A DNA stretch of 64,000 nucleotides from Thermoplasmataceae archaeon (GCA_038729425.1 JAVYSB010000001.1:207927-271926), one strand, 5' to 3'. Counted from the first letter of the stretch, positions 26,818 to 62,389 are shown. Notes: generated from the letters alone by a model not told the origin. Translations and numbers: made by a program.

Positions 26818-29800
26818 ATGCACGCCATTATGAGACGTATTGTCGTTGTCGCATCCGTCACTTTTATGGTAATCCTGTCCTCAGGAATGCCTCTCCTTTC
26901 ACAGATGTCTTCGAGTCACGCCCCAGAGGATGTTGTGCAATATTATCCAACCGGGCAGAACTTCGTGAATTATACTATATATATAAGCCAGGGAGCCTAT
27001 CCTCGAAGTCTCCTGATGAATTACTTAAATGAAAGCAGAATTTCTTCTATTCCATACGGTAATATAGTTCAGGTCTCGGTACCGACCCGTGGCGTTCAGG
27101 GGTTCCTCTCAGCCATGACCCTAATGAGAGAAAATTTCAATCTTAGTTACTTCGAGGATACTGAATCATTTTCCTTCACCCCGTACGTTTATACTCAGCA
27201 AATCAGCGGCAATGGTCTACCGTACTATCCTTCTGACATTGCAACTGCCTACGGTTATAATGGCGCTTATAGCAGCGGAATTACGGGTACGGGACAGACT
27301 ATCGTGATTGTGGATGCTTACGGAGACCCTAACTTGCAATATGATCTGATGGCCTTTGACAAAGTGATGAACATTCCTCCGGCCAATCTTTCCATCGTCT
27401 TTCCCAATGGTGCTGAGCCGCAACATTACAGTGCCACCTGGTCTCTCGAAACGGCAACTGACGTTGAGTGGGCTCATGCGATGGCCCCCGGTGCAAGAAT
27501 AGTGCTGGTCATCTCAACAGATGCCGCGGCTTCTTTGATGGATGCCTTAAGTTACGCTATTAATGAGAAACTGGGTAACATCATTTCCCTGAGTTGGGGG
27601 AATCCGGAATCTCAGCTTGGCATAAACGAAATTGAGACTCTATCGAAGATATTTCAGCAAGCCCAGAACGAGAACATTTCAGTGTTTGCAGCCTCTGGGG
27701 ATTTGGGTGCTTACGACGGGACTTCGGGGCTGACCGTTAACTTCCCTGCTTCGGACCCATTCGTCACTGGCGTGGGTGGGACATCACTTTACGCACCTGG
27801 CTGGAGCCAGCAGGCTTGGGGCGGCATATCGGGTGGCAGTACTTTCGGAAGTGGAGGGGGTTACAGCCAGCTGCCTGTCCCGTATTGGCAAATTGCTCCA
27901 GGCATTAATTCAACTTCGAGAGGCAGGGGAGTACCAGATGTTTCGATGGTGGGAAACACACAGACGGGCGTGGAAGTTATTCAGTCTGGAAGGGTTTTCG
28001 ATGTCGGAGGAACAAGCATAGGCTGTCCCATGTGGGCTGCAATTGGAGCTTTGATAGATCAGGCCAACCAAGCAGATATTGGTAGCCTCAACCCCATGCT
28101 TTACCAGATTTCTCGAATTCCTTTATACAATTCTGCCTTCTCTCAGATAACTAAGGGAAACAATGGCAAGTATAACGCCACGGCGGGATGGAATCCAGTC
28201 ACAGGACTGGGGACTCCAGTAGTAAGTTCGCTAATAAATGCATCAAAGGAAATAAGATCTCAATATGGAACAGTTGCAGTAATAAACAGCTCAGGATATG
28301 GGTTCTCCACTCTATCCGCGAATGTAACATTCGCAGGTTTCACTCAACAGTATTCCTTTAATGGGTCTTCTTTCTTTTACATTTCTGCATATTATTCGCA
28401 AAATCAGTTTATAAAAGTAGGCATAAATATTTCAAATACTTCACTTTTCAGCGCAGTATATGATATTGAACAGAACGGACGCACGGCCTCTGGGAAAACC
28501 CGCATTGAAATGGCGAACAGGTCTGTTCATCTTAGTCTCAGCATCAACGGCACGAACATAACTGGCTTAGTGGGCCCCGTAAAATTCGATCTGAGTTATC
28601 TCCTGACCTTCATAGGTGAATACCAGGCGGCCTTTGGTGCCCAGGTTGATGGAGCAGAATACAATCTCGTGAACCTGAGTGGAGCATATTTCTCGAATAT
28701 AACCGTTAAGAATGGATCAGAAATATCTCCACTGGCCGACATATATTTGGAAGAATACAGTGGAATACCGGGAAAAGCCAAGTACAGCACGCTTTCATTT
28801 TCCAGATCTGGCCCTGAGTACAGTGTAAACTATCTCGTCAACGCAACAACCAAATACCTTAATGGGGGGCCAACAGAGTCCAAGAGCATTGTTTACCATC
28901 TTTATCCATCAAACGTAATCTACGCAACATTTAATCTTACGGGAAATGTACCTGTTAACGCCTGGAAAGTAAATAATTCTACAATCAATGGAAACTCGTA
29001 TACTTTTACCCATGGGGGGTACTATTTAATAACGGCTGAGACAGGAAACACAACAGTACCTTTCTACAACCGAACGGTCTTTATACCTGTACTCTTGAAG
29101 ACTAATTTGACAATCTCTGATTCTCTGAACATAGGTTATTCCGGCACGATCCAAGGCGTGCTTGATAATTTCTACAACCTAAGCGCGCTCAAATCTGGAT
29201 CTCAAGTAATAGAATCAATCTACGGAACAAATTATATTTCATTAATAGAGCATGATTTCTACCCCGTAGAGGCAAATTTTACTGCTGGAATTAACACATC
29301 GCTGATCCTTCAACCGATTAAAAGTACTGTTTCACTGTTTGTGTTTCAGGGAAATTCCACAGTAATAATAAATGGCAGAAGTTTAAACGGCATTAATGGG
29401 ACATACACTGAAAACATCCTTCCAGGCAATGTATCAATAGGTGTTAGTAGTCCTGATTACAGTGATTTTAACTCCACCGTAACTCTTTCCCCTGGCCAGA
29501 ATCTGAACGAACAGATAAATCTGAACATAGCTGGAAACAATTTTTTTGTATCCGGTTATGTAACTGACATAAATTTTGGTTTCGGGCTTTCAAACACCAA
29601 AGTAGAGGAGCAAGGCTCACACTTTGTTTCGTACACAAATGCTTCGGGTTTTTATTTCATCCAGGTTCCACTGGGATACTACTTGTTTGTTTTCAGCAAT
29701 GCCTTATACAAAAACCTGACTTACCCCGAGATTGTAGAGGGGTTCATTCAGCTCAATATAAAAATGACACCGAGAAATGTGAGTGTTTTAAACCTAGATC

Positions 29801-30180
29801 TTAATATACAGAAGTATTTCCCTCTTATGTTCTTTGCTGCTTATTTAACGTGGGATACGTATCCCGGATTAAACTTCTCCAGCTATAACATCGAAGTTTC
29901 CACAACACCGTCTTTCTCTCCCGGTTCGGTGGATACGTTCACATATACAAATCAAGCGCAGAATGACGCTCTTATCACAGGGATTTATCCAACACATACA
30001 TATTACGTAGAGTTAGTAGTTCACCTGAATGATGGATCAATTTACGCTTCGAATTATGTCACTCTTAGCTATGGAAACGCGGTTTTCCTTCTCGCAAACA
30101 TTGCCCTTGTAGGAGGTCCTTTATTCCTTGTGGGATTGATTATTTACCCCTTTGTCAGGAGAGATAGGAAATACAGCTAA
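26818..30180 (+). CDS. Exported, membrane-anchored S53 (sedolisin) protease
   Basis: 1120 aa acid-active serine-carboxyl protease. Layout: signal segment (residues 5-30), short pro-region, S53 catalytic domain to about residue 480, then about 600 residues of Asn/Ser/Thr-rich beta domains with many N-glycosylation-type sites. A membrane helix near residue 1100 is followed by RRDRK. The catalytic set is complete: E211 and D215 (LETATDVEW), oxyanion D295 (ASGDLG) and S400 (GGTSIGCP). The usual GWD of the calcium site reads GWNPVTGLG. ATG 26830 is an alternative start. Its stop overlaps metE by 4 nt. Confidence 0.92.
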   Translation: MHAIMRRIVVVASVTFMVILSSGMPLLSQMSSSHAPEDVVQYYPTGQNFVNYTIYISQGAYPRSLLMNYLNESRISSIPYGNIVQVSVPTRGVQGFLSAMTLMRENFNLSYFEDTESFSFTPYVYTQQISGNGLPYYPSDIATAYGYNGAYSSGITGTGQTIVIVDAYGDPNLQYDLMAFDKVMNIPPANLSIVFPNGAEPQHYSATWSLETATDVEWAHAMAPGARIVLVISTDAAASLMDALSYAINEKLGNIISLSWGNPESQLGINEIETLSKIFQQAQNENISVFAASGDLGAYDGTSGLTVNFPASDPFVTGVGGTSLYAPGWSQQAWGGISGGSTFGSGGGYSQLPVPYWQIAPGINSTSRGRGVPDVSMVGNTQTGVEVIQSGRVFDVGGTSIGCPMWAAIGALIDQANQADIGSLNPMLYQISRIPLYNSAFSQITKGNNGKYNATAGWNPVTGLGTPVVSSLINASKEIRSQYGTVAVINSSGYGFSTLSANVTFAGFTQQYSFNGSSFFYISAYYSQNQFIKVGINISNTSLFSAVYDIEQNGRTASGKTRIEMANRSVHLSLSINGTNITGLVGPVKFDLSYLLTFIGEYQAAFGAQVDGAEYNLVNLSGAYFSNITVKNGSEISPLADIYLEEYSGIPGKAKYSTLSFSRSGPEYSVNYLVNATTKYLNGGPTESKSIVYHLYPSNVIYATFNLTGNVPVNAWKVNNSTINGNSYTFTHGGYYLITAETGNTTVPFYNRTVFIPVLLKTNLTISDSLNIGYSGTIQGVLDNFYNLSALKSGSQVIESIYGTNYISLIEHDFYPVEANFTAGINTSLILQPIKSTVSLFVFQGNSTVIINGRSLNGINGTYTENILPGNVSIGVSSPDYSDFNSTVTLSPGQNLNEQINLNIAGNNFFVSGYVTDINFGFGLSNTKVEEQGSHFVSYTNASGFYFIQVPLGYYLFVFSNALYKNLTYPEIVEGFIQLNIKMTPRNVSVLNLDLNIQKYFPLMFFAAYLTWDTYPGLNFSSYNIEVSTTPSFSPGSVDTFTYTNQAQNDALITGIYPTHTYYVELVVHLNDGSIYASNYVTLSYGNAVFLLANIALVGGPLFLVGLIIYPFVRRDRKYS

Positions 30181-31202
30181 ATCTTCTTCAAAACGTTGTT
30201 TCTGGCAATGACCATGTTCCTAAGCTTCTCCTCTCCTACTTTCCTGCTTCTGGTTCGGAGACCACAGTCCGGGTTTATCTTTATCCTTACGGGGTCTTCC
30301 AGTATCCCCAGAGTGTAATTGATCCGGTCTTCTATCAAAGGAACACTTTCAATTTCATCTATGTGCACATCCGTGACGCCAACACCGAGAAATTTCTTTT
30401 TCTCTACTTCGGCGAAATATCTTATGTCATTGTATCCTGGTCTTTCGGAATCCGAGACTCCCCTGGAGAGCATGTCCCTGTTAGCATATTCCAGGTTCAG
30501 CCCATGAATCTTCAAATCTGGAACCCTGTCATATAGAACCCTATAATCCTTGCTGTAGCAGACATGCAGGGAGAATTCCACATCTTCAATTCCCTCAACG
30601 GACCTGTTTATTGAATCCACTACAATATCCATTTCTGACGGATGCGTTGTTGTGGCCGGTTCATCAATCTGCACCTGAAACTTCTCCGCTGGTCTGGCAC
30701 TTACCCACATCCTCTTCAGTTCCCGGATCTCATCATTCAATATTCTGGAGAATGCCAGAGCAGTCTCATGCCTGTCCCCGTAGTGTTCATTGAAAGACCA
30801 ATCCATCATGGTGTATGGTCCAGTTACCGGTAATTTCAGATCTCCGTTGGTGTTTTTCAGCAGGAATTTGAGTTCATCTCCATGCAGGCAGGATTTCCTC
30901 GAGAGATCGGAAACAACAATTCCCTTCCTGTAGTACCTGTTGTCAAATGACCTCACCATTCCATAAAATTCAAGTCCCGACACAAATTGAGCAAAATGTT
31001 CATACATTTCCCACCTGAACATCTCTCCTCCAACCCCAAGATTCTCCATTCCGACGTTTCTGAAAGTTTCAAGTGTCTCCAGAGTAGCTTTTTCCTTCAA
31101 GGGAACAATCTCGGATTCAGCAGACGAATGGAATTTTCTGCTCAGATACTCTGGTTTTCTGAAGCTCCCAATCTCCTGAGTTTTCAGTATAGTTCCAGCC
31201 AT
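30177..31202 (-). CDS. Methionine synthase, catalytic (MetE C-terminal-like) protein
   Basis: 341 aa cobalamin-independent methionine synthase core. The zinc ligands are recognisable: His and Cys in SLHVCYSKDY, Glu in GLNLEYANRD and Cys in KINPDCGLRTR. QIDEPA is another MetE signature. It transfers a methyl group to homocysteine. As a short archaeal core enzyme it may take the methyl from a carrier other than methyl-THF polyglutamate. It follows the N-terminal-like gene by 2 nt. Confidence 0.88.
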   Translation of the reverse strand: MAGTILKTQEIGSFRKPEYLSRKFHSSAESEIVPLKEKATLETLETFRNVGMENLGVGGEMFRWEMYEHFAQFVSGLEFYGMVRSFDNRYYRKGIVVSDLSRKSCLHGDELKFLLKNTNGDLKLPVTGPYTMMDWSFNEHYGDRHETALAFSRILNDEIRELKRMWVSARPAEKFQVQIDEPATTTHPSEMDIVVDSINRSVEGIEDVEFSLHVCYSKDYRVLYDRVPDLKIHGLNLEYANRDMLSRGVSDSERPGYNDIRYFAEVEKKKFLGVGVTDVHIDEIESVPLIEDRINYTLGILEDPVRIKINPDCGLRTRSRKVGEEKLRNMVIARNNVLKKI

Positions 31203-45360: not shown

Positions 45361-47409
45361 TCAGATCAGATCCTCAGGTCTGATTGGTGTGTTTCTGATC
45401 CTCCTTCCACTTGCTTTCTCTATCGCACGTGCAAGCGCAGTCGGGACCCCAATTGTTGGTGATTCTCCAAGCCCCTTGGCGCCATGCGGGAGCCAGGAAG
45501 GGTTTTCTGCGATCTTGACTCCGAAATTGGGTATATCCTCTGCAAGAGGGACTCCGGCATCAGAAATGCTTGAGGTCAGTAGCTGTCCTTCCTCGTTAAA
45601 CGCTATCTCCTCATGGAGCGTTTGCCCTATTCCCTGCGCCATGCCTCCCTGTATCTGGCCAATGACCATGTCCAAGTTCAATGCTCTGCCAACATCGTAA
45701 TAGGCAGAGCACTCCCTTACCTTAACGCTACCAAGCGAGTTTATATCAACCGTGGCAAGATTTGCGCCAAAGGAGTTCAGTGATCCCTTCTGTTCCTCAT
45801 TGACGTACATGTCATATGAACCGGAGAGCAGACTATTGCTGGAATACTTGCCATGCTTTGCAGAGACTTGTTCCTTTATCTTCCTGCAGGCCGAAACAAC
45901 AGCTGCACCGCCAACTATTGCTGTTCTGCTCCCCCATGATCCGACACCGTTCTGAATCATGTCCGTGTCACCGCGGTAGAGAGTCACGATATTTTCTGGA
46001 ACACCAAGCTCTTCGCTCACAATCTTTCTCACAAAGACCTCATGTGCCTGTCCATGGCTGTTACCACCCAGCCACACGCTTATCTTGCCGTCTCTCGCAA
46101 TGACTCTCGCAGTTTCCCCGGGCGCGAATGCCGGCACAAGAACGAAGAAAGAGAACCCTATGTTTTTAATCGTCTTTACCTTTTTTCTGTAGTCAAGCTC
46201 CCTCACTGCCTGCTCTATGAATGGTCTGGCGGCGTCTATTTCCATTCCAAGCGGTGAACGGAATTTTGCGGTGCCAGAATTGAGAATCCTGAGATCCACC
46301 GGATCCATCTTCAGCTCGTCTGCAAGTAAGTCAACCATCCTTTCGATGAAAAATGAAGCTTCCGGTCGTCCGGCACCACGGTATGGCCCTAGGGTCACTT
46401 TGTTTGTAAGTACCGATAGGGCCCTGACATGTGCATTCTCAATCATATAGGGGCCAGTTCCCATCATTGCTATGAAGCGGGATGCGAATTCTCCCATCCC
46501 TGCCCCGTATGCTCCAGCATCAACGACGACCTCCCCCTTCAGACCAACTATCCTTCCGGTTTTCTCGGCAAAAATCTTCATTGATCCTTTAGCTCCTCTG
46601 CCGTGTCCAGTTGAAGAGAGGTGTTCTCGCCTGGTCTCAATCCATTTCACTGGCCTGCGATATTTCATTGTTGCATAGGCTGCGATCACATACTCCGGGT
46701 AGAGCCCGCCCTTTGATCCAAAAGCTCCTCCAGTGTCTGCCTGCATTACCCTCACATTCTCTGGCTTAAGAGATAGAACTTCACAGAGACCTTCCTTGAT
46801 GCTGTGCACTGACTGCGTAGATATCCAGACGTTGAGCCTGCTGCCGTCATAATCGGCAACAATCCCTCTGGGTTCTATGGGATTTGTGGCAATCCTATTG
46901 TTCATGAATGTATCTTGTAGCACGATAGGCGCAATGGAATCACTGAATTCCTTTCCCCTCCATCCATCTGCAATAATGTTGTTCTTCATTCCATGATGAA
47001 TTGGGGGGGATGAAAGCGCATCTTCGATGGTCATTACAGGTTTCATGGGATCGTAATCAACCTCAACTGAATCCAGCATATCTTCAGATTTGTATCGGTC
47101 ATCGCCGAAGACTGCGGCCACGGGTTCACCAACATAATTGACATACCCAGTTGCAAACACTGGCTCAACCGCGCTGCCCGATCCGTCGTTTGCTCCTTCC
47201 CCGACGGAGGCCATCTTTGCCTTTAACTCTGAGGAACTGAGGCCCCCCCTGATGCTCAGTATTTTGGCATGAGCATAGGGACTCCTCACCACTGACATAT
47301 AAAGAGACCCTGGCAACATGATATCGTCAACAAAATTTCCCTTGCCCTCGACAAAAACTTTCTCGTTGTATTGTGGGTATGATTTCTTTCGCCCTGCCAT
47401 CATAGCCAT
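45361..47409 (-). CDS. Molybdenum hydroxylase large subunit (CoxL/aldehyde oxidase type)
   Basis: 682 aa Mo-binding catalytic subunit. Seen: TGGAFGSKGGLYPE, GPYRGAGRPEASFFIERMVD, VWLGGNSHGQAHE, and the active-site Glu motif GAKGLGESPTIGV. It lacks the AYRCSFR loop of true aerobic CO dehydrogenase, so a different substrate (aldehyde, purine or aromatic) is likely. The length is below the usual 750-800. The ATG at 47409 shares its A with the small-subunit stop; two more ATGs follow within three codons. Confidence 0.9.
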   Translation of the reverse strand: MAMMAGRKKSYPQYNEKVFVEGKGNFVDDIMLPGSLYMSVVRSPYAHAKILSIRGGLSSSELKAKMASVGEGANDGSGSAVEPVFATGYVNYVGEPVAAVFGDDRYKSEDMLDSVEVDYDPMKPVMTIEDALSSPPIHHGMKNNIIADGWRGKEFSDSIAPIVLQDTFMNNRIATNPIEPRGIVADYDGSRLNVWISTQSVHSIKEGLCEVLSLKPENVRVMQADTGGAFGSKGGLYPEYVIAAYATMKYRRPVKWIETRREHLSSTGHGRGAKGSMKIFAEKTGRIVGLKGEVVVDAGAYGAGMGEFASRFIAMMGTGPYMIENAHVRALSVLTNKVTLGPYRGAGRPEASFFIERMVDLLADELKMDPVDLRILNSGTAKFRSPLGMEIDAARPFIEQAVRELDYRKKVKTIKNIGFSFFVLVPAFAPGETARVIARDGKISVWLGGNSHGQAHEVFVRKIVSEELGVPENIVTLYRGDTDMIQNGVGSWGSRTAIVGGAAVVSACRKIKEQVSAKHGKYSSNSLLSGSYDMYVNEEQKGSLNSFGANLATVDINSLGSVKVRECSAYYDVGRALNLDMVIGQIQGGMAQGIGQTLHEEIAFNEEGQLLTSSISDAGVPLAEDIPNFGVKIAENPSWLPHGAKGLGESPTIGVPTALARAIEKASGRRIRNTPIRPEDLI

Positions 47410-47918
47410 CAGTGCTCCACCGCCATTTCCTCTTTCTCGGATTCCTCTGTTTTCATGATCTTTGACGCATACTGTATGGATTCCACTATACTCTGGTATC
47501 CAGTGCATCTGCAGAGGTTTCCTGACAGGCCCCGGCGTATCTCTTCCTCCGTTGGGTTCCTGTTCCGCTTCAGAAGCCAAAACGACGTCATTATCATTCC
47601 CGATGTGCAGTACCCGCATTGAAGACCGTGTTTCTCGAGGAATGCTTCCTGTATCGGATGAAGTTTGCCATTCTTTGAGATACCTTCTATGGTTGTCACT
47701 TCCTTTCCACTAGCCTGCACGGCGAGAGTGGTGCAAGACTTGACTGCTTTCCCATCAACGAGTACTGTACATGCCCCGCAGTTTGTCGTGTCGCATCCCA
47801 CATGTGTACCGGTAAGACCAAGATCTTCCCGCAGGAAGTGTACAAGCAGTTTTCTTGGTTCAACTTCCGATTCAACGTTCTCTCCGTTCACTTTCGTTTT
47901 AATCTTTACATTATCCAT
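47409..47918 (-). CDS. Molybdenum hydroxylase small [2Fe-2S] subunit
   Basis: 169 aa. The plant-ferredoxin-type cluster is [16 protein letters not shown] plus KSC. The second cluster, nearer Moco, is [12 protein letters not shown] with [10 protein letters not shown]. It carries electrons between Moco and FAD. Immediately follows the FAD subunit (stop TAG then ATG). Confidence 0.95.
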
Positions 47919-48791
47919 CTAATTCTCCTCCGACCTTTCTGCTGCAACGAGAATTGCTTCTGCAGTTATCTTCTCAAGCACCTTTTTCTTGAATTCTGCC
48001 GTTCCATAGAAGTCAGAGGATGGTTCACATTCGGTCACTGTTATGGCGGCTGCCTCCTTCGCGACCGCATCGTCTATCTTCCTGTCTTTCAGGTACTTTT
48101 CCGTCTTCAGCGCACGGCTAGGTTTCGGTCCGACCGAAGTAAGGCCAATGCCAGCTTTTTCCACCGTGCCATTGGCCCTCAAGTTGAGATATACCGCTAT
48201 TGCAGCGACCGAAAAATCTCCAGCTGCCTTCTTGTTCTTAATGTAACACCCACCAGATCTCTTAACGGCCTTCGGAATGACAATTTCCGTCAATATCTCT
48301 CCATATTCAATAGCTGTAGTGAATGTATCCAGGAAAAAATTCTCTGCATTCACTTTCCTTTCTGACCTGTTACTGGCAAGAATGAAACTGGCACCCATGG
48401 CAAGCATAACGGCGGGAATGTCGTTAGAGGGGTCACCGTGCGTTATGTTTCCACCAATGGTGCCACGGTTCCGTACCAGCGGGTCGGCAATTCCAGAAGC
48501 TGCATCACTGATAATCTGGTACTTTCCATGAATTAGGTCGCTGTCCTCTAGGTCCGCGATGGTTGTAAGCGATCCTATCCTTAGGTCGGATTGTGATTCT
48601 CTTATGTAATTCATGCCATCTATGCCGGATATGTCAACGATATACGGAATGGACGTCAGCCTGAGTTTCAAAAGGGGTATCAGGCTTTGACCACCGGCCA
48701 AGATCTTGGCCTCGTCCTCGTGGCTGGAAAGAAACTCAAATGCTTCATCCAAGCTCATTGGTGCAATATAACTAAATGAAGATGGGTTCAT
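47919..48791 (-). CDS. Molybdenum hydroxylase medium FAD subunit
   Basis: 290 aa. FAD-binding motifs are AKILAGGQSLIPLLKLRL and RNRGTIGGNITHGDPSND, and the C-terminal CO-dehydrogenase FAD domain is present (GIGLTSVGPKPSRA). First gene of the M-S-L operon. A TATA-like TTCTTATATACGG 25-30 nt upstream of the ATG indicates a leaderless or very short-leader mRNA. Confidence 0.93.
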   Translation of the reverse strand: MNPSSFSYIAPMSLDEAFEFLSSHEDEAKILAGGQSLIPLLKLRLTSIPYIVDISGIDGMNYIRESQSDLRIGSLTTIADLEDSDLIHGKYQIISDAASGIADPLVRNRGTIGGNITHGDPSNDIPAVMLAMGASFILASNRSERKVNAENFFLDTFTTAIEYGEILTEIVIPKAVKRSGGCYIKNKKAAGDFSVAAIAVYLNLRANGTVEKAGIGLTSVGPKPSRALKTEKYLKDRKIDDAVAKEAAAITVTECEPSSDFYGTAEFKKKVLEKITAEAILVAAERSEEN

Positions 48792-50696: not shown

Positions 50697-51440
50697 GTTA
50701 AATGGTTAAGCCCTTTTTCTTAGCGTAGTACAATGTCTTGACGGTCGATAAAACATTATCTTCATTCCATTACTTGTCGATTGGATATTATAAAAAAGTT
50801 GCAAGGCTTTCCTTTAAATTTCCATTACGGCTTTTATTTGTTGATACTTGACTTCCTGAATAGGCTGGTAAACATGACAAGATCTCTTGAGAAAAAGCCT
50901 TAGAGGAGTGGAACATAATGAGTTTTCAAATCATTTTATCTGTAAGACCATGCATGGAAATGCAGAACGCAACACTGACTTAACTCAAGTACTCGATATA
51001 CCATCTTAGGATTTCAAAGCAATCTGGGAAAGTCAGGTGAACCCCCTAAAGGATGAAAAGCAAAAACTGCAGAGATTAAGAGTTTAAGCCAAAACATCTT
51101 CGCCTGACCACAGTCGTCAGAAAGACGATCAATGAAAATCATGAATGTAGTCAGGGGTATTAGAAATAATATTGGCAGTACAGAAACTTGATAAAAGTCA
51201 AGGCAGAAAGATTCATCAATCTTCGACGCCTAGAAAACTATGGCGCTGGGTATAAAAGATTCCAGAAAATCTGGTAACAATGGGTACAGGAAAATAAAAC
51301 ACCTTTCCGCGGTGATATATCGTCCATGAATGGATAACATTGCGGCAAAGCTAAGTTTTTAAATCTTTAGCATACGCAGATTTATCGTGATTTTACTTGA
51401 GGCACGAAAGCTAACACTTATATGTCAGGCGCAGTTTTAA
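50697..51440. other. Gene-poor, probably decayed DNA
   Basis: About 740 bases with stops in all frames and no gene. Short in-frame islands on the plus strand (for example the stretch at about 51203-51290, reading KAERFINLRRLENYGAGYKR) look like remains of a coding region, possibly a transposase, but I cannot name it. No terminal repeats seen. Confidence 0.35.
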
Positions 51441-51469
51441 TCGTATATTACGATATACTAATATTAGTA
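51441..51469 (+). promoter_or_regulatory. Promoter with nested palindromes before the ferredoxin pair
   Basis: TCGTA-TAT-TACGA (51441-51453) and GTATAT-TACG-ATATAC (51443-51458) are perfect inverted repeats over the presumed TATA box GTATATTA. TACTAATATTAGTA (51456-51469) is a perfect 14-bp palindrome between TATA and the ATG at 51473. A repressor bound here would block transcription. The ArsR protein encoded at 53445 is the obvious candidate. Confidence 0.6.
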
Positions 51470-51472
51470 ATT

Positions 51473-51835
51473 ATGGATGATAAAGGAATGTGGCACGGAG
51501 TTGATAGAACGCTTCTCCAGTGGTACCCGACTATAGATGATCAAAAGTGCAACAACTGTGGAATGTGTTTATTGACTTGCGGAAACGATGTCTTACGGTG
51601 GAACAAAATAGGGGAAAAACCGATAGTGCAAAATCCAGGAAAATGCGTCGTCGGGTGCACGACGTGCGGAAAGCTGTGCCCAGAGAACGCAATCAGTTTT
51701 CCTTCGGATCCGAAACAGTTCGTCAGAGAAGTTATCCTGAAATACAAGATTTTTCCACGAGTTAAGCAGGAACTTAACGCAAGAATCCAAAAGTTTCCAG
51801 ATCATTCAGTTCATTTGAAGGTGATCAAAAAATGA
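51473..51835 (+). CDS. Ferredoxin-like protein with two 4Fe-4S motifs (first of tandem pair)
   Basis: 120 aa. Cysteines C26/29/32/36 (C-x2-C-x2-C-x3-C) and C58/62/65/69 (C-x3-C-x2-C-x3-CP) can bind two 4Fe-4S clusters. The N-terminal WHGVDR...WYPTIDDQK is shared with the next gene. A C-terminal basic helix extends past the clusters. The frame runs upstream to an ATG at 51422, but that part would be an odd hydrophobic tail across the promoter; ATG 51473 fits leaderless spacing. ATGA overlap with the next gene. Confidence 0.85.
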   Translation: MDDKGMWHGVDRTLLQWYPTIDDQKCNNCGMCLLTCGNDVLRWNKIGEKPIVQNPGKCVVGCTTCGKLCPENAISFPSDPKQFVREVILKYKIFPRVKQELNARIQKFPDHSVHLKVIKK

Positions 51836-52188
51836 GTGAAGTTGCTGTGCTTAACCCTTTTGCCATATGGCATGGTGTCCCCAGGTCTGGTATTCATTGG
51901 GAACCAAGCATTGACGTAGACAGGTGCACTGGCTGCGGTCTGTGCGTTGTTACCTGTGGAGAAAAGAGAAACGTTTTCGGATACGATTTTGAGAGAAAAA
52001 AGGCTGTGGTTATGTATCCTGAAAACTGCATGGTTGGGTGCAACAATTGTACCGTGAGTTGCCTATGGGGTGCCATAACACATCCTGATGTTTCGGAGGT
52101 AAGGGAGCTGTCAAAGAAACTTCCAATGGATTTATTGAAGAAAGAACTTAATAAAAAACTGGAGGCTAATCCGGGACTTCTTGCCTGA
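51832..52188 (+). CDS. Ferredoxin-like protein with two 4Fe-4S motifs (second of tandem pair)
   Basis: 118 aa paralogue of the preceding gene (WHGVPR, W.PSIDVD, CTGCGLCVVTCG). Cluster ligands are C32/35/38/42 and C66/70/73/77. The proline normally following the last Cys is replaced (SCLWGAI), and a longer loop separates the motifs. The two proteins could form a heterodimer or an electron wire. It ends the first transcript before a hairpin terminator. Confidence 0.85.
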   Translation: MSEVAVLNPFAIWHGVPRSGIHWEPSIDVDRCTGCGLCVVTCGEKRNVFGYDFERKKAVVMYPENCMVGCNNCTVSCLWGAITHPDVSEVRELSKKLPMDLLKKELNKKLEANPGLLA

Positions 52189-52226
52189 CCTATGGGTTAT
52201 CTGGGAAAAATAATCAACGAAACGCA

Positions 52227-52278
52227 TACCCATTTTTTTCAAACATGGGTACATAGCAAGACGAGAAGTGCTTTTTTT
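52227..52278 (+). terminator. Hairpin plus T-run after the ferredoxin pair
   Basis: TACCCAT (52227-52233) pairs with ATGGGTA (52245-52251), and a run of seven T follows at 52272-52278. A second, AT-only inverted repeat ATTGATTT/AAATCAAT lies at 52287-52304. Together they probably separate the ferredoxin and DsrE transcripts. Confidence 0.45.
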
Positions 52279-52411
52279 ATATTTTAATTGATTTAAAAAT
52301 CAATATTTTAAAATAAGACCGGTAGGGATATTCTCATTTTATTCTTTGAGAGAAATTCTTATGCGATTCCATTTCTATTTACATTGTTGTTGAGGTTGAC
52401 CGATAGCATTA

Positions 52412-52427
52412 ATTAGTATATTCTAAT
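52412..52427 (+). promoter_or_regulatory. Inverted repeat over the TATA box of dsrE-fmdE-arsR
   Basis: ATTAG-TATATT-CTAAT is a perfect inverted repeat whose centre is the TATA box, 25 nt before the dsrE ATG at 52447. With the ferredoxin promoter it shares TTAAT, GTATATT and CTAATATT in the same order. Likely operator for the ArsR protein of this operon. Confidence 0.55.
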
Positions 52428-52446
52428 ATTCTGGCCAGGTACAATA

Positions 52447-52806
52447 ATGGCTGGTAAAATAGCAATTGTAATAAATTCAGGGTTGGATCAGCGCGCAAAG
52501 GTTATGTCTGGCCTGCATGTGGCTAAGCGGATACATGATGCTAGGGAGGAGAATAATATTGAAAACGTCGAAGTTTTCCTTTTCACGGGCGGAGTAAGAG
52601 CAATGGAATCCGGCAAGGACAATAGCGAGATATTAGAAGCAATTAAGGGACTTCGGGAAGCGGGAATCACGCTGGAAGCTTGCTCAAACCAAGTTAGAAA
52701 TTGGAACTTGGAGGATATTTTCTCTAAAAATGGCATAAATCTTGAATTTGCGAGGGACGCATTTTCAAGGTACGCAGTAGAGGGATATACCGTAATTTCA
52801 TTTTAA
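52447..52806 (+). CDS. DsrE/DsrF-like sulfur-relay protein
   Basis: 119 aa Rossmann-like DsrE fold. IAIVINSGLDQRAKVMSGLHVA, VEVFLFTGGV and the single cysteine C79 (LEACSNQVRNW) in the position used for persulfide transfer. First gene of the dsrE-fmdE-arsR transcript, leaderless. It probably handles sulfane sulfur or a small thiol redox signal; the partner is unknown. Confidence 0.82.
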   Translation: MAGKIAIVINSGLDQRAKVMSGLHVAKRIHDAREENNIENVEVFLFTGGVRAMESGKDNSEILEAIKGLREAGITLEACSNQVRNWNLEDIFSKNGINLEFARDAFSRYAVEGYTVISF

Positions 52807-52831
52807 AGGCACATAATAGAAGGTAAACTAA

Positions 52832-53440
52832 TTGAAAGATGGAAATCTTCCAGTATTTCGAGTGCTTGATACTGAATCCAGCCATGGAAGGTACTCTCGT
52901 AAATACAAGGAGATAAGGTTTGTTGATCTGGTGAAATTCCATGGACATGCGTGCGATGGACTTTACAGGGGCAGTTATGCTCTTTCAGTGGCATTTGATG
53001 CACTCTTCCCAAATGGAATAATTGACCGAACAGACCTTAGGGCAGTATCTAGAAACAGTCCTTGTCTCGGCGACGCTGCCACTTATCTTACAGGAGCACG
53101 CATTCGTTTTGGAACCCAGAATGTGAAGAATACGCCAGGTGTGTGGTATATAATCCAGCGTATATCTACCGGTGAGGCTGTAAAAGTATCCGAAGAAAGC
53201 GGATTTTTTCCTGGTGAGATCTTAAATATGGAGGCTACTCTTCTTTCAACGCCGGCAGATCGGCTCGCGAAGGGAGTTAATCAACTGAGAAAAATGCAGG
53301 AAAAATGGGTAAAAAATGTACTCTTAACCACTAAACCTCACGAACATTATTACGTGACGGCCATAGATTATATGTGGGAAGAAGTACAGTTTAATAATAA
53401 GGGGATTCGCACTGACATTATATTTAAGGACGTGTTATAA
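52832..53440 (+). CDS. FmdE-like protein
   Basis: 202 aa. FVDLVKFHGHACDGLYRGSYAL resembles the FmdE domain motif HGHxCPG, with possible metal ligands H37, H39, C41 and C78 (NSPCLGDAATYLTGA). FmdE proteins occur near formylmethanofuran dehydrogenase or molybdopterin genes in other archaea; none is here. Pro is replaced by Asp in the motif. It begins with TTG at 52832 (AAGGT upstream) 25 nt after dsrE. Confidence 0.72.
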   Translation: MKDGNLPVFRVLDTESSHGRYSRKYKEIRFVDLVKFHGHACDGLYRGSYALSVAFDALFPNGIIDRTDLRAVSRNSPCLGDAATYLTGARIRFGTQNVKNTPGVWYIIQRISTGEAVKVSEESGFFPGEILNMEATLLSTPADRLAKGVNQLRKMQEKWVKNVLLTTKPHEHYYVTAIDYMWEEVQFNNKGIRTDIIFKDVL

Positions 53441-53444
53441 TACT

Positions 53445-53792
53445 ATGACGCAGACATTGAAAGAACAAAGCATAGAATCAGTTGCCGGAATTATGAAGGC
53501 TATGGGAGATAAAAATCGTCTTCATATTCTTTCACTTTTGAGGGAGAGAGAACTCTGTGTATGCGAGCTCACTAACATATGCCATCTCTCACAATCTAAT
53601 GTTTCCCAGCATCTTGCTAAGCTGAAGTCGAATGGGCTCGTAAAGGAAAGAAGAAACGCTCAATGGGTATACTACTCACTCTGTGATGACAGATTCCCGT
53701 TAATTGTTGAAATTCTTAAGCTTCTCCCAGAAACCGCAGAAGACCTTTCAAAACTAGAGAATTCAAGAAATCATCCGGCGTGCAGTCTATAA
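53445..53792 (+). CDS. ArsR/SmtB-family metal- or thiol-responsive repressor
   Basis: 115 aa winged helix. The metal-site motif ELCVCEL (C38, C40) sits at the classical alpha-3 position, and the recognition helix is SQSNVSQHLAKLKSNGLV. Additional cysteines C46 and C113 are unusual. It probably represses its own operon and the ferredoxin pair through the inverted repeats upstream of both. It follows fmdE by 4 nt. Confidence 0.92.
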   Translation: MTQTLKEQSIESVAGIMKAMGDKNRLHILSLLRERELCVCELTNICHLSQSNVSQHLAKLKSNGLVKERRNAQWVYYSLCDDRFPLIVEILKLLPETAEDLSKLENSRNHPACSL

Positions 53793-53835: not shown

Positions 53836-54140
53836 TAGTGCTTTCCTTTCTTCTCAAGCCCCTTGATCATATTTATAGCAACTGAGAGACACACTTCAAA
53901 TTCAAAGTCTTTTTACTCTCCTAGCAAGATGAATGTTTAATGGATCTTCGGATCCCAAAACAACTTTCCGGCCGTAATACCTTCAAGTAGTGATGCGATG
54001 CCTTCCACAACCTGTGCATCAGGAATCTTAGAAAGCACTTCAAGAAGTGAGTTGAGCATTTTCGGATTCCCATTTAACATATAGTCTGCAAGTGCTCTTT
54101 TGTTTCCCTCTAGAAATAAGTCCCTTACATGCCAACCCTC
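53836..54140 (-). pseudogene. Coding remnants on the minus strand
   Basis: Two frame-islands end in proper stops but lack starts. One (about 54140 to 53937) reads RDLFLEGNKRALADYMLNG, then LLEVLSKIPDAQVVEGIASL. The other (about 53910 to 53836) reads DFEFEVCLSVAINMIKGL. In-frame stops precede both. They look like a decayed gene of unknown family next to the ArsR cassette. Confidence 0.3.
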
Positions 54141-55229: not shown

Positions 55230-56048
55230 ATGCAGCCAGTTAAATTGAAGAAATCGGACAAGATATGGATAACTATCACCGCTGTCATTCTGGTAACGTT
55301 GATAGGTGTTACAGTTTACTCCGGCGTTTGGCCCCCCGTAAGCGTGGTGGAATCAAGCAGTATGCAGCATTCTTCATACTGGACGCCAAACGGCGTATAC
55401 ACTGGAGACATTGTTTTCATTAAGAAAGTGACATCGCCGACTAACCAAATCGTTACGTACCTAGATGGGTCTGAAACAGGATATTCAACATATGGAGAAT
55501 ATGGAAGCGTCATACTCTACAGGTCAACCAATGGAAATACGATCATACACCGTGCGATGTTTTACCTCACCTGGAACGGAAATTCCCCAGTGGTTGAAGG
55601 ATACACAAACCAGTCCTGGATTACTGTAACGCAGAATTACGTGAGGCTAGACAATGTGGGATACTCCCATAGAAATCTGGTGGTTGAGATCAGCGGAATG
55701 GTAGGGGAGAGCGGGTACATTACCGTTGGAGATTACAACTTGGGCTCAGCAACTAGATCAGAATTCAACGGCGCCCTGAATGGGTACATTGTCGCGGACC
55801 AGAATGTAGGTATAACAAGTGAACCGGTGAAGTATTCCCAGATCATGGGGGTGGCTTTTGGCGAAATACCCTGGTTCGGTCTGATAAAACTTAACTTCCT
55901 GAGAGCCTATGGGGAATGGCAGTATTATAATGACGTCCCCCAGAATAGCTATTTGTATCTTGGGATCTCCATCGCAGTCATCATTGCGGCGATAGGTATT
56001 CCTGTTGGTTACCTGGAATGGAAGAAAAGAAGAAACTGGAAACACTAA
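55230..56048 (+). CDS. Signal peptidase I (archaeal Ser-His type)
   Basis: 272 aa membrane protease that cuts Sec signal peptides. An N-terminal helix (residues 12-30) is followed by the nucleophile S44 in ESSSMQ. His107 in NTIIHRAMF replaces the bacterial Lys, as in ER and archaeal enzymes. A second helix near residues 243-262 ends in basic residues. It is encoded beside Sec61-beta, its pathway partner. The stop overlaps the convergent GHMP gene by 4 nt. Confidence 0.87.
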   Translation: MQPVKLKKSDKIWITITAVILVTLIGVTVYSGVWPPVSVVESSSMQHSSYWTPNGVYTGDIVFIKKVTSPTNQIVTYLDGSETGYSTYGEYGSVILYRSTNGNTIIHRAMFYLTWNGNSPVVEGYTNQSWITVTQNYVRLDNVGYSHRNLVVEISGMVGESGYITVGDYNLGSATRSEFNGALNGYIVADQNVGITSEPVKYSQIMGVAFGEIPWFGLIKLNFLRAYGEWQYYNDVPQNSYLYLGISIAVIIAAIGIPVGYLEWKKRRNWKH

Positions 56049-57025
56049 ATCGTTGTTGCCCCGCCGGCCACCTTGAGCGGAACAGCTTGAACTCCGTGTT
56101 TTTCTGCAATTTCCAGCACAGCTACGAGATTTTTCCTTTCTACGGGGACAAAAACATTGGTTCCGCCAGTCACTATGTAGCTCATCCAGACATTGTTACG
56201 GGCTTTTTTCACTGAATCCATAAGAGACCTCATTTCCCTAGTTATGATCCTTACACCCATACTTTCGCTCAGCCTGTGATATTCCTCCGTATCAGCCATA
56301 GCCATCTCGAATATACCCTTTATATCTCTGTCCTCTGCTAGCTTCCTGATCTCGTTTCCCTTTGACTTTGTTCTGGATACCCTTTCCGGATAATCCGGAC
56401 TTTTTACCATATTCTCGTGGATATCGTCAGATGGTCTCCTGGAAGCTGAAAATTTACAGCCGATAACAGCATAATCTCTGAAGGCAGATTCGTCCAGAAT
56501 CTTCTCCGTGAATACTGCAGATCCATTGCCTTCAGTGATCGTAAGGCCGCCGTATATGCTTCGTCCAACGCTTTCTGATATCACGCGAAGATCATTCTCG
56601 ATCCCGTAGAGAGAGACATCGTAAGGAATTATGTTCTCGATACACTTGCCGACAGCAGCTGCAGCGCCATCTGAACTTCCCGAGATAACCGATCTGTTTA
56701 ACGAAGAAAATGACACGTGTTCATCCCCCTTCATCCTGAGTTTCATGGATATTTTATCAGCGTAGCTGTTTATTATTGTAAACGGAGATCTGTAATCAAT
56801 TGAACCATCGATCGGAGAACCATTGACGTAACCCTTCTGATCCTCACTCACGAAGAATGATGTTTCAACCCTTATCTTTTCCTCAATTCCGGTATAGGCT
56901 ATCCCGGCGGATGTGTGCATCGGATATCTACGCTGTTTATCGGATATGCCACCAAGTAGGATTATGCCCATTGTGGGATAAGCTATTGAAGATGAGACTA
57001 TATTACCATCAAGGTCAGCTACCAT
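56045..57025 (-). CDS. Mevalonate 3-kinase-like GHMP enzyme
   Basis: 326 aa, related to diphosphomevalonate decarboxylase. AYPTMGIILLGGI, HTSAGIAYTG, SGSSDGAAAAVG and IENDLRVISESVGRSIYGG match, from memory, the Thermoplasma mevalonate 3-kinase that starts the order-specific isoprenoid route via mevalonate 3,5-bisphosphate. A close paralogue, the bisphosphate decarboxylase, is the main alternative. The ATG at 57025 has TATA-like GATATATC 25 nt upstream; a TTG 22 codons earlier would extend beyond the family's start. Confidence 0.8.
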   Translation of the reverse strand: MVADLDGNIVSSSIAYPTMGIILLGGISDKQRRYPMHTSAGIAYTGIEEKIRVETSFFVSEDQKGYVNGSPIDGSIDYRSPFTIINSYADKISMKLRMKGDEHVSFSSLNRSVISGSSDGAAAAVGKCIENIIPYDVSLYGIENDLRVISESVGRSIYGGLTITEGNGSAVFTEKILDESAFRDYAVIGCKFSASRRPSDDIHENMVKSPDYPERVSRTKSKGNEIRKLAEDRDIKGIFEMAMADTEEYHRLSESMGVRIITREMRSLMDSVKKARNNVWMSYIVTGGTNVFVPVERKNLVAVLEIAEKHGVQAVPLKVAGGATTI

Positions 57026-57136
57026 GTATCGGTCATCGATTCGAAATGATATATCTTTATCTTCGCTTTTTTTGAAACAATGAGCACACAAAGCTAAAAA
57101 TAAACTTGTGAGATACCCCAGCGGAGTTGATATTTA

Positions 57137-60384: not shown

Positions 60385-61527
60385 TTACATTATCCCCCTG
60401 ACCATACCTGAGAAGTAAGTATCAGCTGATGTCCACTTGAATATGTAATCAAGCTTGCTCTTGAAGTTGGCTTTTGCATTTTTTTCATAGCTGAACCAGA
60501 GGGAAATTGCCTCGTTCACACCAGTAATGGTATAGCACGCGCATTCGCCATTATAGTCATCCTCATACACCGCGCCACCCACTTCCGAAGCAATATGGTG
60601 TGAGAGATACCCGGATTGGAAGTGTGCCGCAGCCCCGGCCTTCGATACTGGGAGGTTAGTGGCGTCACCAATGACAAAGACATCGTCGTATTTCCCATAA
60701 TTAAGCTTGTGCCTGTCTACATCAATATATCCAGATTCTCCTGCGAGGCCAGAATCTGTTATAACCTTCTGCCCCCTGTGCGGCGGTACCAGAATTAGCA
60801 TATCGTACTTTACCGATTCGCCTTCTAGAGAGTTCACAACCTTATTTTTGGGATCCACAGTTTCCACATTGAACATCGTGTGAGTAATAATGCCCCTTTC
60901 CTGAAACAGCTTGTCGACAAAAACAGCCACTTGTGGCATTGTGAATACGCGATTGAGTGGATATGTGTAATGTATGTTTATCTTGTTTCTTATCCCTCTT
61001 TTCCTGAAATAGTGATCAAGCAGGAACGTGAATTCGTATGGAGCCGGAGGACATTGTATCTCTGGGCTTGCCTGCCCTATAACTATGTCTCCGCCATTGA
61101 ATTTTGCAAGATCCTCCTTCAAGGAAAGTGCTGCCTGCAAGTTGTAGAAATGTTTCGCTTCGCCTTCATAGCCTGGCACATCCTCCGGTGTTAATCTGTC
61201 ACCGGTTGCAATAGCGAGATAATCATAGGAGTATGATTTGCCAGACTTCACTGTAACAAATCTTTGATCAACATCAATTCTCACCACTTCATCCTGAATA
61301 TATTTCACACCGGCATTGAACAGAAATTCCGAGTTCTTTACGCTTTTCCTGTAATCCAGAAGACCAAATGGTATCTGTACCCCGTCAGGCTTGAAATAAT
61401 GCTTCTTCGAATTGCCTATTACAACAATTTCTAGTTCATTCTTATTCGTTAGAAAACGGAGCTTGTTTGCCAGGATTGTCCCGGCGGCTCCATCCCCCAG
61501 AATAAGTGCTCTCTTCTGGCTATACAC
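60385..61527 (-). CDS. Sulfide:quinone oxidoreductase-like flavoprotein
   Basis: 380 aa. The FAD site is ALILGDGAAGTILANKL; a second dinucleotide-type segment and VFVIGDATNLPVSKAG follow. Cysteines C159 (IQCPPAPYEF) and C329/C331 (GECACYT) correspond to two of the three SQR cysteines; the first is missing. The amphipathic C terminus may touch the membrane. It may oxidise sulfide or a persulfide on TusA/DsrE. GTG start with GAGGA upstream. Confidence 0.85.
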   Translation of the reverse strand: MYSQKRALILGDGAAGTILANKLRFLTNKNELEIVVIGNSKKHYFKPDGVQIPFGLLDYRKSVKNSEFLFNAGVKYIQDEVVRIDVDQRFVTVKSGKSYSYDYLAIATGDRLTPEDVPGYEGEAKHFYNLQAALSLKEDLAKFNGGDIVIGQASPEIQCPPAPYEFTFLLDHYFRKRGIRNKINIHYTYPLNRVFTMPQVAVFVDKLFQERGIITHTMFNVETVDPKNKVVNSLEGESVKYDMLILVPPHRGQKVITDSGLAGESGYIDVDRHKLNYGKYDDVFVIGDATNLPVSKAGAAAHFQSGYLSHHIASEVGGAVYEDDYNGECACYTITGVNEAISLWFSYEKNAKANFKSKLDYIFKWTSADTYFSGMVRGIM

Positions 61528-61536
61528 TTATATCCT

Positions 61537-61779
61537 CTACCTTACCTTCTTCAGGACAATTTCTACATACCCGTCCCTGTCGTACACGCCAATTAACTCA
61601 TTGCCGCTCTTCTTAATCCAGGCGGGGGCATCGACCTTTGTCCCATTGTCAGAAGAGTAGAGAGAGATCACATCTCCAACTTTAGCCTGCTTGTATCCCT
61701 TTATGAGTTCCATGAGGGGCCCTGGACAGAAACTGCCCCTTGCATCTATAACCTTAGTAGGTTTTACTTCCTCAGCCAC
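61537..61779 (-). CDS. tusA: TusA/SirA-family sulfur carrier
   Basis: 80 aa. The CPxP motif is in [16 protein letters not shown] with the sulfur-carrying C18. It moves persulfide sulfur between the DsrE-type protein encoded before it and the flavoprotein after it. GTG at 61779 is chosen because AGGTGG lies 5 nt upstream; a GTG three codons earlier sits inside that site. Confidence 0.9.
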
Positions 61780-61790
61780 TTTAACCACCT

Positions 61791-62204
61791 TTATATAAAC
61801 AGGGTCATCTTTGAATCTTTCGCCATCGCAACGAATTTCCCTACGCCTATGATCTCATCAATGATCGGATCTAGGTCTTCCTTCTTCAAATCCATCAAGT
61901 CTGCAAACATTGCGCAACCGTACACCTTCACATTTCCAACTTCCTTTGCCTGCCTGAGCATATCCATGAATGACGGAATTTTCTTTTCCATCATCTTTTT
62001 CATGACTTCCTGTTCCATACCCTTTCCATCGTAGCTGAGGGTCATCTTCCCGCTTCCATTCTTCTTGAACTGCATGAGCCCCCAAAAACTTACGAAGATG
62101 TCCACCTCCATATCATTCGCAACTGCACCTGAGGCAATTATTGCTCCTGCCATTAATTTGTCAGATGTCCCTGACACTAGCAAAAGTGACATTTTTTCGG
62201 CCAT
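61791..62204 (-). CDS. DsrE2-like sulfur transferase
   Basis: 137 aa DsrE/F/H-like fold. [32 protein letters not shown] and the active cysteine C97 in [12 protein letters not shown] are typical of DsrE2-type proteins that work with TusA in sulfur-oxidising archaea. First gene of the dsrE2-tusA-SQR-DUF1641 operon. An ATG 11 codons upstream (62237) is possible, but TACTAATAATC about 25 nt before 62204 favours the shorter form. Confidence 0.83.
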
Positions 62205-62389
62205 ACGATCACTAGTTAGATTATTAGTAAGTAACATAATAATAGAGAGCCGAACATGTAAGCGACATTAATCTGGATTAGCGAGAGATATCTCACCAAG
62301 ACAGTTTATCACACCATATTTTAATTCTCAAAAGTGTTTATGATTTTTAGTGTAATGGCATAATGACGTAAAATATAAATAAAAATTAG

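Follow-up and report, generated by a model that had tools for sequence, protein, structure and literature searches.

Five small genes of a Thermoplasmataceae archaeon, encoding two ferredoxins (Fd1 and Fd2), a DsrE-fold protein, an FmdE-family protein and an ArsR-family repressor, are as a whole probably best explained as an accessory arsenic-resistance regulon that includes a DsrE-FmdE pair. They are found in a stretch of 64,000 nucleotides (GCA_038729425.1 JAVYSB010000001.1:207927-271926, hereafter the window) of an acid-loving host whose 1.45-Mb genome (G000) is 97% complete; the corresponding locus of its sister genome (G045) is L024. The arsenic-regulon part of this explanation is very likely, both the regulon and its association with arsenic being deduced from sequence comparisons, and the capture or thiol-exchange mechanism that we propose for DsrE and FmdE is tentative.

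The association with arsenic comes from the genes surrounding FmdE in other microbes. A scan of 84,980 species, each represented by one genome, retrieved 56 loci, and dedicated arsenic genes were found within 7 kb of FmdE in 17 of the 19 Bacillota loci, in all four Actinomycetes loci (ACR3, ArsA, ArsD) and in 9 of the 19 Thermoplasmata loci (ArsB). In the acidophilic Bacillota Sulfobacillus, Alicyclobacillus and Sulfoacidibacillus, DsrE and FmdE are part of ars operons displaying, with variations, the order ArsR, AhpD-like, ArsD, ArsA, ArsA, DsrE, FmdE, ArsR, ArsB and FAD oxidoreductase, and NCBIfam confirms the identities of the neighbors (ArsB with 609 bits, above cut-off, ArsD and the ArsA family). 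In acidophilic Actinomycetes, too, the pair is located within ars operons. The independent NCBI annotation of plasmid p1 of Alicyclobacillus sp. SO9 also displays an ars operon containing the pair (FAD oxidoreductase, CMD, arsD, arsA, arsA, DsrE, FmdE, arsR, arsenic transporter, arsC, arsC, trxB), where DsrE is named "hypothetical protein" and FmdE "FmdE family protein". In other families (L072, L073, L075, L079, L194 and L195), related ferredoxins have ArsR, ACR3 or both as neighbors. The seven classical FmdE genes of the order serve as a control: they adjoin a TSUP permease and have no DsrE, ArsB or ACR3 beside them, although a different ArsR is near several of these loci. The presence of DsrE-FmdE in the ars operons of many unrelated microbes points to an unrecognized accessory part of arsenic detoxification. 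Therefore, the original prediction, made from the window alone, that the locus handles a metal(loid) or a sulfur/thiol species is backed in its metal(loid) part, and the neighboring genes narrow this inference to arsenic.

The second line of evidence is a palindrome (GTATATT-n3-ATATAC) located in front of both transcription units, Fd1-Fd2 and DsrE-FmdE-ArsR. In the window, seven matches with up to two mismatches were found against 1.3 expected by chance, a number that no shuffle reached, and the whole genome contains only four sites with at most one mismatch, two of which are these operators. The sequence AGTATATTnnnATATACT is conserved upstream of DsrE across the family. In the DNA of relatives (~300 kb), 27 of 32 sites (up to two mismatches) are at the starts of DsrE, ArsB or Fd1: of the 17 testable cassettes, 16 have the operator in front of DsrE, and it also precedes the arsenite pump ArsB in all eight cassettes where this gene is divergent, and Fd1 in L024. 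It is also found ~14-30 nucleotides upstream of Fd1 in unlinked ferredoxin pairs (L064, L067, L068, L069 and L071), four of whose five genomes carry the FmdE cassette; G079 (L068) has the operator before Fd1 and no FmdE match. The ferredoxin pairs of cassette-less genomes (L065 and L066 of genus g15, and other families) have no operator at that position. Therefore, the shared operator unites DsrE-FmdE-ArsR and the ferredoxins, joined in some genomes by ArsB, in what is, by sequence, one regulon, and backs the earlier proposal that the locus is under ArsR control. As in As(III)-responsive ArsR systems, the palindromic operator overlaps the promoter and, as in ars operons, the repressor gene is itself part of the operon.

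The repressor scores 99.7 bits against the NCBIfam HTH_metalloreg model (cut-off 55) and presents the features of As(III)-type ArsR proteins, a CxC pair in the recognition helix and a third cysteine: C38 and C40 are invariant from Archaea to Bacillota, and the C-terminal cysteine is present in nearly all complete orthologues. The original prediction described ELCVCEL plus two extra cysteines; the motif is present, but three extra cysteines were found (C46, C80 and C113), of which only C113 is conserved. The CVC thiol pair and its location in the region of the DNA-recognition helix are shared with E. coli-type As(III)-sensing ArsR, whereas the third cysteine is C-terminal here instead of at the CxCxxC position, and is kept there from Archaea to Bacillota.

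These cysteines bear on the idea of a sulfide or persulfide response, in which ArsR would be a SqrR/BigR-like persulfide sensor, DsrE a sulfur carrier and an SQR-like flavoprotein the oxidant of sulfide, with FmdE and the ferredoxins serving sulfur oxidation. The DsrE fold agrees with it, as do the SQR-like and DUF1641 genes, which in 10 of 19 Thermoplasmata cassettes are convergent with ArsR, the DUF1641 relic in the window and a second SQR-like/DsrE2 pair at 60385-62237. Nevertheless, the CVC pair is at what we take to be the arsenite-type position and not that of the BigR-type sensor pair. Moreover, the operator precedes DsrE, ArsB and Fd1 and not SQR (in the site scan of the ~300 kb of relatives' DNA it was absent upstream of the SQR-like gene), the bacterial homologues accompany ArsA, ArsD and ArsB, mostly without SQR, and the SQR-like representative of L029 has one cysteine only. 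We regard a persulfide response as unlikely.

The locus is composed of two modules that are joined here, DsrE-FmdE-ArsR and the tandem ferredoxin pair. FmdE matches are found in 22 of the 117 genomes of the order, with DsrE upstream and ArsR downstream in nearly every case where the contig reaches, and Fd2 matches (E<=1e-15) in 32 of 117. The ferredoxin module is mostly a tandem pair with Fd1 conserved as its first member, usually located elsewhere in the genome; the two are fused as one protein in L075, and family f3 has a single ferredoxin. Among the genomes examined, both modules are adjacent only in G000 and G045. The co-occurrence that the original prediction proposed to check therefore holds for DsrE, FmdE and ArsR, which are widely found together, but its picture of five genes as one conserved cassette does not, and a single five-gene operon was discarded, as the two modules are separate loci in most genomes. 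Compared with ars operons of the arsRDAB type, the locus shares the ArsR repressor, an apparently co-regulated ArsB in relatives and, in the bacterial versions, ArsD and ArsA upstream; it differs in its DsrE and FmdE genes, which have no ars name, and its archaeal form lacks an adjacent ArsA, ArsD or ArsC and gains the putatively co-regulated ferredoxin pair. In addition, an Lrp-like regulator, a CMD-domain protein and a TDT/SLAC1 transporter recur beside DsrE-FmdE-ArsR (L025, L026, L028, L029, L031, L039, L040 and L041). The surroundings of WHG-type ferredoxins in other families (L070, L078, L079, L080 and L195) are a second, different arsenic-like neighborhood, with ACR3, an Lrp-type regulator, CMD/AhpD-like proteins and a radical-SAM pair (B12-type and SPASM-type).

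The structural model of FmdE (predicted local distance difference test, pLDDT, 92) matches only 2gvi, 3d00 and 2glz in Foldseek (E ~1e-6), and the PF02663 score (58.4 bits, cut-off 22.9), the fold and the HxHxC plus distal cysteine ligands all place it in the FmdE family. In the solved structures, Zn or Ni is held by His15, His17, Cys19 and Cys55 in 2glz numbering (PMC2954224). Their counterparts H37, H39, C41 and C78 are invariant in an alignment of 40 homologues; the correspondence to 2glz and 2gvi was deduced from the motif and its spacing, since no relative, and hence no alignment, was retrieved when the PDB was searched with a profile, although the fold comparison did retrieve relatives. 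Relative to the solved proteins (2glz, 2gvi/Ta1109 and 3d00), the core fold and the HxHxC...C ligands are the same (PMC2954224), whereas the C-terminal zinc finger is lacking, there is an extra N-terminal SSHGRY region, the second motif (Asp-Gln-Thr) is retained, by eye, at Asp81 only, and identity in the structural alignment is ~18-19%. The gene neighborhood also differs from that of the classical copies beside TSUP.

This metal site leads to another alternative, a general response to soft metals (Cu, Zn, Cd, Hg) in which ArsR would sense a divalent metal and FmdE would be a metal chaperone. FmdE homologues bind Zn or Ni at the equivalent site and often adjoin metal-ion transporters (PMC2954224), the permease adjacent to Planctomycetota-like FmdE is best matched, below cut-off, by the SO_0444 Cu/Zn efflux model, and the ferredoxins bear a weak likeness to HgcB. 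In contrast, the pumps of the bacterial operons are ArsB proteins accompanied by ArsA and ArsD, and the HgcB scores (29-31 bits) stay below the cut-off of 99. We regard a soft-metal response as very improbable.

The DsrE model (pLDDT 97) matches BT1422, YchN and DsrEFH, and its C79, which is invariant (alignment A5), aligns with the family cysteine; the Pfam score falls slightly under the curated cut-off of the family. Fold and single-cysteine position are those of the DsrE/TusD/YchN family, but this DsrE is stand-alone, without DsrF or DsrH, has its own EFARDAFSRYA motif and is constantly partnered by FmdE in Archaea, Bacillota and Actinomycetes. It could then be argued that DsrE-FmdE is a new arsenate reductase replacing ArsC by means of the DsrE cysteine and ferredoxin electrons. 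Indeed, the host has ArsB and an ACR3-like protein, and neither the low-molecular-weight phosphatase nor the glutaredoxin type of ArsC was found in its genome; ArsC is beside few cassettes (0 of 19 in Thermoplasmata and 3 of 19 in Bacillota), and the pair is accompanied by redox proteins. However, the Alicyclobacillus plasmid operon contains two arsC and trxB besides DsrE-FmdE, the fold of DsrE is that of sulfurtransferases and the FmdE sites are Zn/Ni-like, with no known redox activity, so that the replacement of ArsC seems quite unlikely.

Several other known systems were compared with the locus. Of the DsrEFH/TusBCD sulfur relay, a single DsrE gene is present, without its partners, even though fold and cysteine agree. 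A role in a formylmethanofuran dehydrogenase operon was rejected, as no fmd/fwd genes were recognized in the neighborhoods examined. Mercury methylation by HgcAB was discarded, the ferredoxins scoring at the level of generic ferredoxins and no HgcA being seen at the locus. With the BigR family model of the SqrR/BigR persulfide sensors, ArsR scores 48.8 bits, below the cut-off of 155. Anti-phage defence was also rejected: the PADLOC matches are confined to the winged-helix part of ArsR and come mostly from Csa3/CARF models.

Returning to the arsenic regulon, we infer the binding of ArsR to the operator, As(III) as its ligand, the joint action of DsrE and FmdE, the direction of their chemistry and the electron-donor role of the ferredoxins as follows. 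In the resting state, ArsR would occupy the palindromes before Fd1 and DsrE and block transcription. Upon entry, As(III) or Sb(III) would be bound by the thiols of C38, C40 and C113, and the loaded repressor would leave the DNA, allowing expression of both units. DsrE, with one reactive cysteine, and FmdE, with its 2His/2Cys metal site, may then work jointly on As(III) in the cytoplasm or on its thiol or persulfide adducts, capturing As(III) or swapping its sulfur ligands before handover to the ArsB/ACR3 pumps (with ArsA in bacteria), while the ferredoxin pair could provide electrons for this thiol chemistry. A more specific version is doubtful: that the pair is an undescribed arsenic-detoxification enzyme, common to archaea and several bacterial phyla, working by thiolation of arsenic or by ferredoxin-driven reduction at the 2His/2Cys site, with ArsR reading arsenic through CVC and the C-terminal cysteine.

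Several observations weigh against the arsenic regulon. In 10 of the 19 Thermoplasmata cassettes of the scan, some of them cut by contig ends, there is no dedicated arsenic gene within 7 kb, and the SQR/DUF1641 pair, also present in 10 of 19, fits sulfur chemistry. The arsenite pump, operator-linked in eight relatives and present in Bacillota loci, is absent from the window; the host ArsB (C3:22095) and ACR3-like protein (C3:45758) are on another contig, unlinked to the locus, and no operator match with up to two mismatches is close to them, so that no visible sign places these pumps in the regulon. Finally, a Planctomycetota/Verrucomicrobiota-like group has FmdE without DsrE; FmdE is accompanied there by ArsR, an ArsP_1 permease, an ArsE-type thioredoxin and, in some cases, ACR3. 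DsrE and FmdE therefore need not always act together.

Other FmdE homologues display further arrangements. The classical Thermoplasmatales FmdE adjoins a TSUP (TauE/SafE-like) permease in L066 and L147-L152, the TSUP gene of L151 being frame-disturbed in the ORF (open reading frame) call; in genus g15 it also adjoins a divergent ArsR with a CTC motif, followed in L066 by the ferredoxin pair. In L133, L134, L143 and L144 (Planctomycetota/Lentisphaerota/Kiritimatiellae-type), the FmdE N-terminus resembles, by eye, a lipoprotein signal (e.g., ITGIFTGCASN), which suggests a putatively exported form. On plasmid pSCD of Sulfuricella denitrificans (29461-30189, L199), an FmdE homologue (42% identity) directly follows an F-type ATP synthase cluster that is also carried by the plasmid, and no ars genes are annotated in its vicinity.

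The FmdE tree places the archaeal proteins together with Alicyclobacillaceae and Sulfobacillus thermotolerans (96/88) and puts the FmdE of the same-genus genome G044 in a different clade from that of the window. Together with the plasmid copy, the tree suggests exchange among acidophiles, within the limits imposed on this inference by bins and paralogues. Our literature search retrieved no paper naming FmdE together with DsrE and, for FmdE or its long name with arsenic or arsenite, no link to an ars operon, most subscription journals being outside the search. In a study of Thioalkalivibrio, DsrE/F-like genes changed under arsenite without being explained (PMC6620896), a lead consistent with an arsenic role. 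An Acidiplasma FmdE gene is reported to be >14-fold lower on sulfur, pyrite and arsenopyrite (PMC12524180); as this subfamily and the classical one are not distinguishable there, it was not used as evidence.

Table 1. Operators, genes and pseudogenes of the locus (positions in the window).
Feature	Position	Strand	Characteristics
MFS transporter pseudogene (flank, non-functional)	51059-51310	-	tblastn 58% identity over 84 aa, with a stop, E=2e-22
Operator 1, palindrome GTATATTACGATATAC	51443-51458	.	14 nt upstream of Fd1 start; 0 mismatches to GTATATTnnnATATAC
Fd1, 2[4Fe-4S]-type ferredoxin	51473-51835	+	WHGVDR...WYPTID, CVVGCTTCGKLCP; Pfam Fer4_6/Fer4_7 above cut-off
Fd2, 2[4Fe-4S]-type ferredoxin	51832-52188	+	WHGVPR...WEPSID, CMVGCNNC; Pfam Fer4_7/Fer4_2
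Operator 2, palindrome GTATATTCTAATATTC	52416-52431	.	15 nt upstream of DsrE start; 1 mismatch
DsrE/YchN-fold protein	52447-52806	+	One invariant Cys (C79), EFARDAFSRYA motif; Pfam DsrE E=4e-4
FmdE-family protein, core domain only	52832-53440	+	TTG start; Pfam FmdE E=1e-15
ArsR/SmtB-family repressor	53445-53792	+	C38-V-C40 pair and conserved C-terminal C113; HTH_5 E=6e-17
DUF1641 pseudogene (flank, non-functional)	53838-54101	-	tblastn 67% identity over 88 aa, in-frame stops, E=3e-33

The five ORFs originally predicted are all intact on the plus strand, their families are backed by Pfam, and the described marks (WHGV-R---W-P-ID header, single DsrE cysteine, HGHACDG, ELCVCEL) are each present; the locus start had been placed at 51441, just before operator 1 and not at the start of Fd1. 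The Fd1 and Fd2 ORFs overlap by 4 nucleotides. Amino-acid identities between G000 and G045 are 74-92%, and the ratio of nonsynonymous to synonymous substitution rates (dN/dS) is 0.04-0.13 in four genes, synonymous sites of Fd1 being saturated; the five genes are therefore maintained, being real, intact and under purifying selection.

The gene-poor, decayed flanks noted earlier are real, and their remnants are identifiable as MFS (intact counterpart, MFS_1) and DUF1641 pseudogenes, the DUF1641 protein being in relatives the partner of an SQR-like flavoprotein. Both genes are intact at the same positions in G045, where the SQR-like flavoprotein adjoins DUF1641. The decay is thus local erosion, and its use as evidence of insertion or transfer was dropped; transfer of the unit nevertheless stays plausible from the mixed archaeal and bacterial FmdE tree and the plasmid copy. 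Elsewhere on the minus strand of the window there are molybdenum hydroxylase genes of the aldehyde oxidase or CO-dehydrogenase type (45361-48791; MoCoBD and FAD-binding subunits, also in G045), a mevalonate-3-kinase-like gene that fits the Thermoplasmatales mevalonate route (56045-57091) and, 7 kb from the cassette, the second SQR-like flavoprotein, which scores 337 bits (below cut-off) with the type III SQR model and has a DrsE_2 (DsrE2-like) gene upstream.

Although few stress systems of bacteria are mapped as well as arsenic resistance, two genes conserved in the ars operons of acidophiles carry no ars name, and what is new here is a version of the operon with an uncharacterized accessory DsrE-FmdE pair. 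If DsrE and FmdE act on arsenic, they would add a step combining sulfur-carrier and FmdE chemistry and would provide a role for a domain that is known chiefly through solved structures and the operons of methanogens. This would be relevant to biomining microbes, which face strong acid and high arsenic, and the operator offers an immediate handle for mapping the regulon.

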